A stretch of 64,000 nucleotides of DNA from Bacteroidota bacterium (lineage in GTDB: Bacteria > Bacteroidota > Bacteroidia > Chitinophagales > Chitinophagaceae). This document shows, in pieces, positions 61,857 to 64,000 of this stretch (positions are counted from its first letter, which is position 1; each line of letters opens with the position of its first letter). Position numbers and translations under genes: made by a program. The notes under the pieces are model-generated. The model made no database searches. It saw only the letters and a program-made list of their open reading frames with translations, and had not been told where the DNA came from. The stretch is taken from assembly GCA_018266555.1 (NCBI GenBank), contig JAFEAF010000002.1, positions 28,667 through 92,666 of the forward strand, given 5' to 3'.

Positions 61857-62163
61857 ATGGAGCAGGCCAAAAAATCAATGTTATAACTGATTCTCTACCT
61901 GAAAAAATACGAACTGAAAAAGAATGGGAACGCCAAGATTGTGGCATCTACTCCCAATGATGGAACTCCTAAAACTTTGGAAACACAGTTAGAAATTAAT
62001 ATTAGCAATTGGGACTTAAAATACAGAAGAATTGAGAGCAAAAGTGCCACAGCTTTAAGTATTGACAAAAAGTGGGGCAATATATATACTTGTGCATTTC
62101 GACAAGATTTATAAAGATATGCTGAAGCACGGGGGTAATAAACGCTCAAAATTTAAACTATAG
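61857..62163 (+). pseudogene. 5' remnant of a tyrosine recombinase (integrase) gene
   Basis: The frame from ATG 61857 reads MEQAKKSML, a TAA at 61884-61886, then LILYLKKYELKKNGNAKIVA, STPNDGTPKTLETQLEIN, NWDLKYRRIESKSATALSID, and stops at 62112. Shifting by +1 near 62080 continues as HFDKIYKDMLKHG to a TAG at 62161. This matches the Arm-DNA-binding domain and its connector in Bacteroidota site-specific integrases (family recalled from the pattern YLKKxxLKKNGxAPI... and DKIYKDMLKHE). The catalytic domain with Arg-His-Arg-Tyr is missing. It is thus a 5' fragment with one nonsense and one frameshift mutation. Confidence 0.8.
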
Positions 62164-62239
62164 TTTTAGAACATAGGTGTAATGGATAGTGCAATGCATG
62201 ATTTTGAAGATTGGGGATCCTTATAATTCACCATCCCAC

Positions 62240-62360
62240 CTTTTTCTTTTTTTCAACCGGATATAAAGTAAGAACTGCCGAATATAGAGTGGAATAATTC
62301 CCGGGCATTGGTATATTTTAATTTAGTAACAGTTGTCCGGTAACAGGCAACGAAGTTTTA
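62240..62360 (+). repeat. Leader repeat copy A, upstream of the DUF4412-like gene
   Basis: The core 62240-62329 matches 63369-63458 at nearly every base, including CTTTTTTTCAACC, ATATAGAGTGGAATAATTCC and TATATTTTAATTTAGTAA. Weaker similarity (GGTAAC...CGAAGT) continues to about 62360. It ends 77 nt before the gene at 62437. No TAnnTTTG box is inside. Confidence 0.88.
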
Positions 62361-62436
62361 AGCTATATTCTTAATTCATCCTTGTCCTGTATAGAAACTT
62401 TAAAGTATGTATTAAAGAATTAAAAATTAGAGTCAA

Positions 62437-63156
62437 TTGAAAATATTAATGCTTCTTTTTTTAACAGCCTTCGTTTCCTTTCATAAGATAAAAAAAGCAG
62501 ATGTGCCATTTGAAGGTGTTCTCACGTATCAACTCCACTATGTAGATAAATGGTTTGGCACTCAAGGTGAGGTACACACGACTATTTATGAGGCGCCGGG
62601 TAAGTTTAGAATTGAAGCTTACGATACCTCATATGATAAGCCGGACTTGACCATACAAAACCCGCTTTTAATAGATGTGCAAAATGGGACTGAAACACAT
62701 TTGGCAGCCAATATGCAAAGAGCCGTTGTTTATTCCGTAAGCTCAAAAAACAAAATGACTCAAAGCATGGAAAGTAATACACATACTGTATATAATATTG
62801 AGAATATTGGTCAGGATACGGTAAACAATTTTACCTGCAGACACTACAGAATATCCAAGAGCTATGAAAAATTAAAAACCTTGCCTCCTGCCATCTTCGA
62901 CATCTGGATCACCAAAGACCTGGGCAGTGGCAGTATCTGGTATATAGGAGACTATCTCTACCTCTATCCCGGAATGGATTTATTTACAAAATTAGCAAAG
63001 GAAGGTGCTGATGGTGTGGTAGTGAAATGGCAATTGAAAACAAAAGGTGTAACAACCTGTTTACTCACTTCACATTGGCAGACGGATATTCCCAATTCAA
63101 AATTCTTACCCCCTTCAAACTATTCACTATTTCAAATGCCGGGCATGAACCAATAG
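62437..63156 (+). CDS. Exported DUF4412-like protein of unknown function
   Basis: A 239-residue protein with a hydrophobic N-terminus and a beta-rich body resembling DUF4412 / LolA-like lipid-carrier folds: FEGVLTYQLHYVDK, THTVYNIENIGQDTVNNFTC, RHYRISKSYEK and DIWITKDLGSGSIWYIG. The first in-frame codon giving a basic signal peptide is TTG 62437 (MKILMLLFLTAF); the first ATG at 62449 would give MLLFLTAF without a positive charge, so the TTG start is likely. It is preceded by leader repeat A and has a sister leader before the next gene. Confidence 0.68.
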   Translation: MKILMLLFLTAFVSFHKIKKADVPFEGVLTYQLHYVDKWFGTQGEVHTTIYEAPGKFRIEAYDTSYDKPDLTIQNPLLIDVQNGTETHLAANMQRAVVYSVSSKNKMTQSMESNTHTVYNIENIGQDTVNNFTCRHYRISKSYEKLKTLPPAIFDIWITKDLGSGSIWYIGDYLYLYPGMDLFTKLAKEGADGVVVKWQLKTKGVTTCLLTSHWQTDIPNSKFLPPSNYSLFQMPGMNQ

Positions 63157-63368
63157 CAAAGAAATCTTGAGAATGATCACAGACAGAAATTCCTTTAGCA
63201 GCATACAGGATTAGGTATTTAAATCGTGTATGAATATTAATAATTTCTTTGAAAGTTAATACTGCAAAGACTTTGGCGATTATTTTATTAAAAATTAATT
63301 CAAGTTATTCCTTATTGATTCACGACTAAAGCTCCTAATCCGAATAACATATTTATTATCAATCCCCG
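63157..63368. other. Gene-free stretch between the two leader-linked genes
   Basis: AT-rich, no supported gene and no strong terminator hairpin. It runs directly into leader repeat B. Confidence 0.45.
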
Positions 63369-63489
63369 CTTTTTTCTTTTTTTCAACCAGATATAAAGGC
63401 ATCGCTGCCGGATATAGAGTGGAATAATTCCCGGCATTGATATATTTTAATTTAGTAATGGATTTCATCAATCGGTAAACGAAGTATTA
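63369..63489 (+). repeat. Leader repeat copy B, upstream of the 63580 gene
   Basis: Direct repeat of 62240-62360, about 1.13 kb apart, same orientation. The core is almost identical; the first 9 bases after the T-run and the segment after TTTAGTAA differ. It ends 91 nt before the ATG at 63580. Confidence 0.88.
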
Positions 63490-63579
63490 ATTCGAATAGT
63501 TTATTAGCAACCTTCCGGTATTATAACGTAGGCTCTTTTAACCAAACAGGATTAAAGATAATTTTTTAAACAAAAATTT

Positions 63580-64000
63580 ATGAACCGCTTTATCAATATG
63601 ATTACGGCTCTCGTATTTCTACCGTTCTTATTTTCATACGGAAAGCCCGGCTTGCAAAATTTTTCTGCGCTCAAACACAATGATTTCCATAAATACAAGG
63701 GAAAGGGCGTTCTCCTGGTTTACACAGGAACCTCACAATCCCCGGTGGGAGTTTTCGCCATAGGCATCAGTATGGAAACAGATCCCGCCATTGGGATTAG
63801 GTTTGAAATAACAGTTAAACGAGGCATTAATGTAATGTCTCACGCAGCGATATTTCACAAATTTTCGAACCCCAAGCAGTCCATTATTTACAACTTTCAA
63901 TCCCATACCGCTTCTGTTAATTATAATACAAATCCTGAATTTAATACTAAGCTAATTGGAGGATTGGTGGCTGCCGCAGATAAGGAAATGATTGGGAAAT
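63580..64000 (+). CDS. Exported hypothetical protein, N-terminal part (cut by window edge)
   Basis: An open frame of 140 codons that runs off the window. It starts MNRFINMITALVFLPFLFSY, a signal peptide, then KHNDFHKYKGKGVLLVYTGT and GISMETDPAIGIRFEI, a beta-rich body. No family recognised. It has leader repeat B upstream, so it is likely controlled together with the DUF4412-like gene. The sequence is unrelated to that neighbour at the visible level. Confidence 0.7.
   Translation, partial: MNRFINMITALVFLPFLFSYGKPGLQNFSALKHNDFHKYKGKGVLLVYTGTSQSPVGVFAIGISMETDPAIGIRFEITVKRGINVMSHAAIFHKFSNPKQSIIYNFQSHTASVNYNTNPEFNTKLIGGLVAAADKEMIGK

Follow-up and report, generated by a model that had tools for sequence, protein, structure and literature searches.

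Two neighbouring genes for secreted proteins, found at the end of a 64,000-nucleotide stretch of DNA (the window), raise the question of why twin leaders, and with them a promoter, should stay near-identical while the proteins encoded behind them differ strongly. Our answer is that both leaders combine a promoter with an operator at which a LytTR-family response regulator would bind, most probably the product of L031 8775-9530 in the same locus, and that both genes would be switched on by it. We give this reading a probability of roughly 0.82, with binding and activation predicted from the DNA sequence.

Leader copy 1 (62235..62361, + strand) and leader copy 2 (63365..63490, + strand) form a direct repeat 1130 bp apart, confirming the near-identical pair that an earlier note on this DNA had placed at 62240-62360 and 63369-63489. 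The copies match by about 87% across the first 100 bp, with 87% identity between 62235-62304 and 63365-63434 and 75% between 62301-62361 and 63430-63490, and BLAST aligns them over 95 bp (88%, E = 7.5e-28). Their 20-nt core, ATATAGAGTGGAATAATTCC, has two occurrences in the window against 0.04 expected. No third near-identical copy was detected by BLAST in the 3.4-Mb genome, where the next match has E = 0.02, and the exact two-block pattern of the leaders has no match in 393 other genomes of the family. The search of the full genome suggested by the earlier note thus yields only two near-identical copies, in front of two secreted-protein genes, while recurrence is otherwise seen across species. 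Exact occurrences of the 20-mer in four other genomes were discarded as chance, their translations reading as antisense asparagine-synthetase-like coding DNA.

Both genes have signal-peptide-like starts, in keeping with the claim that they encode secreted proteins. Gene 1 (62437..63156, + strand, 239 aa; TTG start with an alternative ATG at 62449) is a member of Pfam DUF4412 (PF14371, E = 1.4e-13). Gene 2 (63580..64000, + strand, cut by the window end; complete at L031 4247-4969, 240 aa) has no Pfam match itself and does not reach the DUF4412 gathering score, but two of the five members of its family, both same-genus relatives, do match DUF4412 (best E = 8.4e-9), and the families of gene 1 and gene 2 are joined by hhalign over the C-terminal half (E = 1e-5, 82%). 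Because the relatives of gene 2 reach DUF4412 and the family profiles align, the proteins are not unrelated, as had been supposed, although the strong divergence behind that view is real (about 21% identity, in the C-terminal half only). Judged by these profiles, the two products are diverged members of one broad family. Homologues of gene 2 are present in all three same-genus genomes (3/3); gene 1 has no match in these three at E <= 0.001, and a 52% homologue with a diverged leader in front of it occurs in another genus (genome G360). The absence of gene 1 from the same-genus genomes, together with its G360 homologue, suggests exchange between genera or old paralogy. The G360 leader (CCGGTTATAAAGTAAAAGAGGCCATGTATAGAGT, upstream of the gene 1 homologue) appears by eye slightly closer to leader 1 than to leader 2, and an arrival of gene 1 together with its leader would fit this, if weakly. 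In genome G003 (L082 10425-11821), two tandem paralogues of gene 2 have near-identical signal peptides and about one-third identity elsewhere, looking as though their 5' ends had been homogenised.

The layout of the leaders is that of an operator followed by a promoter. Each contains two 9-bp direct repeats with 12 bp between them, and then 32-33 nt to the Bacteroidota -7 box TAATTTAG. Leader 1 reads ACCGGATAT-12-GCCGAATAT followed by 33 nt, with predicted operator half-sites AACCGGATATAAAGT (62255..62269, + strand; 9-bp core at 62256-62264) and TGCCGAATATAGAGT (62276..62290, + strand; core at 62277-62285) forming a 21-bp direct repeat, and with the predicted -7 box at 62319..62326 (+ strand). 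Leader 2 reads ACCAGATAT-12-GCCGGATAT followed by 32 nt, its predicted half-sites AACCAGATATAAAGG (63385..63399, + strand; core at 63386-63394) and TGCCGGATATAGAGT (63406..63420, + strand; core at 63407-63415) again forming a 21-bp direct repeat, and its predicted -7 box lies at 63448..63455 (+ strand). No obvious -33 TTTG box is seen in the leaders. The -7 consensus of Bacteroidota is TAnnTTTG (PMC9723704), and LytTR regulators recognise pairs of 9-bp direct repeats with 10-13 bp spacing (PMC11347149). In published LytTR promoters the repeats stand 12 bp apart and are followed by 10 bp, a -35 box, 17 bp and a -10 box; for instance, ACCACTTAC-12-ACCACTTAT, 10 bp and TTTACA-17-TATAAT leave 33 nt between the second repeat and the -10 box (PMC6193735 Table 3). 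Since the repeat pair, its spacing and the fixed distance of 32-33 nt (published 10+6+17) agree with these promoters, we read the leaders as LytTR-activated promoters. Operators of the AgrA/ComE/AlgR type and of LytTR Regulatory Systems (PMC6193735, PMC11347149) thus share with the leaders the 9-bp repeat pair, the 12-bp spacer and the 32-33 nt to the -10/-7 element, and they also have nCC-rich half-sites (ACCAGATAT here, ACCAGATAG and ACCAGTTAT in PMC6193735 Table 3). An 'undescribed system', as the earlier note had it, is therefore too strong a term for what is a known LytTR operator-promoter architecture.

A matching regulator is encoded nearby. Past the window end, the genes after gene 2 encode an OmpA-like protein (L031 5127-6452), a TPR-containing LytS-type histidine kinase (PF06580; L031 6680-8773) and the LytTR response regulator (L031 8775-9530), which combines a LytTR domain (PF04397, E = 1.2e-15) with a receiver domain. 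Kinase and regulator lie 3-6 kb downstream of the leaders (the regulator about 4-6 kb), and their phospho-acceptors are intact (the H of NPHFIFN in the kinase, D59 in the regulator). In a PDB sequence search, the regulator matched receiver domains only. The same pairing of a PF04397 regulator with a PF06580 kinase is found in G360, G335 and G001-G003. The gene order is OmpA, gene 2 (one or two copies), kinase and regulator in G001 and G003; OmpA, kinase and regulator in G002 and G070; OmpA (58%), LytS kinase and LytTR regulator (75%) in G335; and gene 1, two kinases and regulator in G360. In other genera, homologous leaders stand before such operons, which combine OmpA/DUF4412 with LytS/LytTR genes. 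The idea of a regulatory cassette recurring before exported proteins is thus borne out in being regulatory and recurrent, but what recurs is a protein-binding promoter region, and it does so across species.

Further genes for secreted proteins were noticed around such loci. G360 has two more DUF4412-like secreted or lipoprotein genes on the opposite strand, at most about 1.5 kb from the kinase-regulator pair (L079 14011-16171). In several genera (L193, L194, L195, L196 and L161), the related LytS/LytTR operon, or else a comparable run of genes carrying the operator, contains a gene for a secreted QDLGxxKKQKPFxxSGSxGA protein and, behind it, one for a giant secreted product (up to about 2500 aa).

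The operator is conserved well beyond the window. A PWM built from leader 1, leader 2 and the G360 leader only located sites upstream of OmpA in the same-genus genomes G001 (p = 0.002) and G002 (p = 0.0005); the gene 1 homologue of G304 is without a leader. A profile of five leaders (R1: the two window leaders, G360, G001 and G002), run without regard to gene positions on 394 family genomes that are part of a larger family, gave one new strong match (E = 2.9e-5); it lies in G335, a different genus, some 200 bp before the OmpA-kinase-regulator operon. Many R1 matches at E 0.001-0.05 are probably in-gene and were taken as chance, the two that were checked being coding. A profile of 12 sites aligned on the repeats (R2) gave a new match (E = 2.6e-7) in G061, also of another genus, immediately before an operon whose last genes are a homologous kinase-regulator pair, the regulator having been separately identified by protein. 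Weaker new matches stand beside genes for LytS-like kinases, in G099 and, judged by eye, in G015. Applied to the genome that holds the window, R2 recovers both leaders and one site before an OmpA gene at the locus C27, all three of them in the training set, and then noise.

The repeat period itself is sharply defined. Six leaders carry the 15-nt unit nnCCrrnTAtaaAGt twice, the second copy starting exactly 21 bp after the first (identity 0.67 at this offset vs 0.11-0.32 at others, p < 2e-4). A half-site matrix from these six leaders was applied at spacings 15-30 to strictly intergenic DNA upstream of the first gene of 13 held-out loci, found via regulator similarity or paralogy (G061 also via R2), and spacing 21 was the best of 16 in eight of the 13 regions (binomial P = 2e-7; 0/1000 shuffles). 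In the DNA before several kinase genes a spacing other than 21 scored best, indicating that autoregulation is not general. Moreover, TAnnTT lies 27-28 nt past the second 15-nt half-site in 12/12 homologous sites (0/1000 shuffles), and this box played no part in choosing them. As some of the 12 sites were picked with matrices that contain the 21-bp spacing, the independent evidence consists of the half-site spacing test, the -7 box and the G335 and G061 matches. We discarded the candidates of G147, overlapping the start of an ORF, and of the G199 kinase start, in coding DNA. A first consensus, TATARAG-N14-TATARAG, was too crude: its exact matches are the two window leaders only, and at two mismatches it gave fewer matches than the reversed control.

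The two window leaders resemble each other more than this code demands. Across species, the half-sites and the -7 box alone are conserved; in the window pair, the spacer to the -7 box and a T-rich upstream tract are kept as well, and four of the six positions of the 6-nt spacer between half-sites have changed. The wider conservation requires a separate explanation, and since less is kept between species than between the window copies, promoter duplication or conversion within the locus must be invoked on top of functional constraint. One leader would have been copied from the other in this way, and the DUF4412-type genes behind them may be older, diverged paralogues. A local copying event is also what would be expected if a leader-plus-gene unit had been doubled in tandem and its coding part had diverged, leaving a leader likeness without regulatory meaning; two adjacent copies before two DUF4412-type genes, and the tandem gene-2 paralogues of G003, agree with such a relic. 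We nevertheless consider it very unlikely, as the leaders are about 87% identical and the proteins about 21%, gene 1 has its homologue in another genus and none in the three same-genus genomes, and the repeats and -7 box are kept in diverged loci of other genera.

Two further proposals of the earlier note, an RNA leader and a small transposable unit, are unsupported. A structured RNA (riboswitch or attenuator) might be suspected from the position of the conserved stretch, about 60-190 nt upstream of the coding sequence, and from a modest hairpin in copy 2 alone (z -1.7). However, the two copies fold no better than shuffles (z -0.16 and -0.30), Rfam gives no match, no stable or covarying structure was found, and the conserved blocks, being placed ahead of the predicted -7 box, would stay untranscribed, which makes this explanation highly improbable. 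That the leaders are a small mobile element or a cassette end is next to negligible in probability: the patchy distribution of gene 1 and an integrase relic about 120 bp upstream of copy 1 would suit it, but near-identical copies number only two and are adjacent, unlike the dispersed copies of a MITE or REP repeat, the exact pattern is absent from the 393 other family genomes, phage, plasmid and viral collections contain no leader copies, and strong homologues hold the same position relative to LytTR operons. The relic (61888-62114) is a genuine Arm-DNA-bind_5 fragment (23.8 bits, cut-off 22.6) with stop codons on both sides and no catalytic domain; its closeness to the leaders, taken in the earlier note as typical of accessory cassettes, appears incidental as far as visible.

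It can also be asked which regulator binds. At least one paralogue of the LytS/LytTR locus exists in the genome, C27 (G000, L086 6824-11365); there an OmpA gene with a leader-like operator and -7 box in front is oriented divergently from the genes for a LytS-type kinase and a LytTR regulator. With a similar site at C27, the leaders might be the promoter/operator of a non-adjacent regulator, either another LytTR protein of the genome, which could bind them, or another direct-repeat binder. We regard this as unlikely, because the adjacent LytTR regulator closes the same gene run as the leaders and the blind matches fall on operons whose regulators are 64-75% identical to it. At 75-76% identity, the G360 and G335 regulators are nearer relatives of the window regulator than the same-genus ones (63-66%), with which the C27 regulator groups.

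Taking the same-locus regulator as the binder, a membrane LytS-type kinase with TPR repeats would sense an envelope signal and phosphorylate the LytTR regulator, a dimer of which would bind both repeats on one DNA face, beside the -33 region. Transcription of gene 1 and gene 2 would then rise, and the gene 2 transcript probably reads into OmpA and possibly into the kinase and regulator genes. In LytTR Regulatory Systems, by contrast, an inhibitory membrane protein replaces the kinase, while the regulator here contains a receiver domain and is partnered by a LytS-type kinase. An LRS-like operator of B. thetaiotaomicron (TCCGGTATTCA-11-ACCGGAAATCA, promoter TGTA-19-TATCTTTG; PMC6193735) has half-site letters very close to ACCGGATATAA/GCCGAATATAG of the window and likewise a Bacteroidota -7 box, but its period is 22 bp rather than 21 bp, and its system consists of an NfeD/DUF2154 membrane protein and a membrane LytTR protein, unlike the window locus. 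Also unlike known LytTR operators, the window has two near-identical operators in one locus, before secreted DUF4412-type genes. Switches of this type are known, but apparently none has been described in this role; for this group, our literature search found no paper on LytTR sites of the response-regulator type.

These genomes are rich in LytS/LytTR pairs, each genome yielding tens of candidate regulator matches. It seems an even chance that family-wide LytS/LytTR envelope systems use one operator-promoter code (nCCrnnTAn-12-nCCrnnTAn, 32-33 nt, TAnnTT) with a changing set of secreted DUF4412/OmpA genes, into which a paralogue was captured here by copying of the whole promoter. If this is true, the shared code lets the regulon of each such system be read from sequence alone, and a tested operator code would connect DUF4412 and other orphan secreted families with defined signalling systems.
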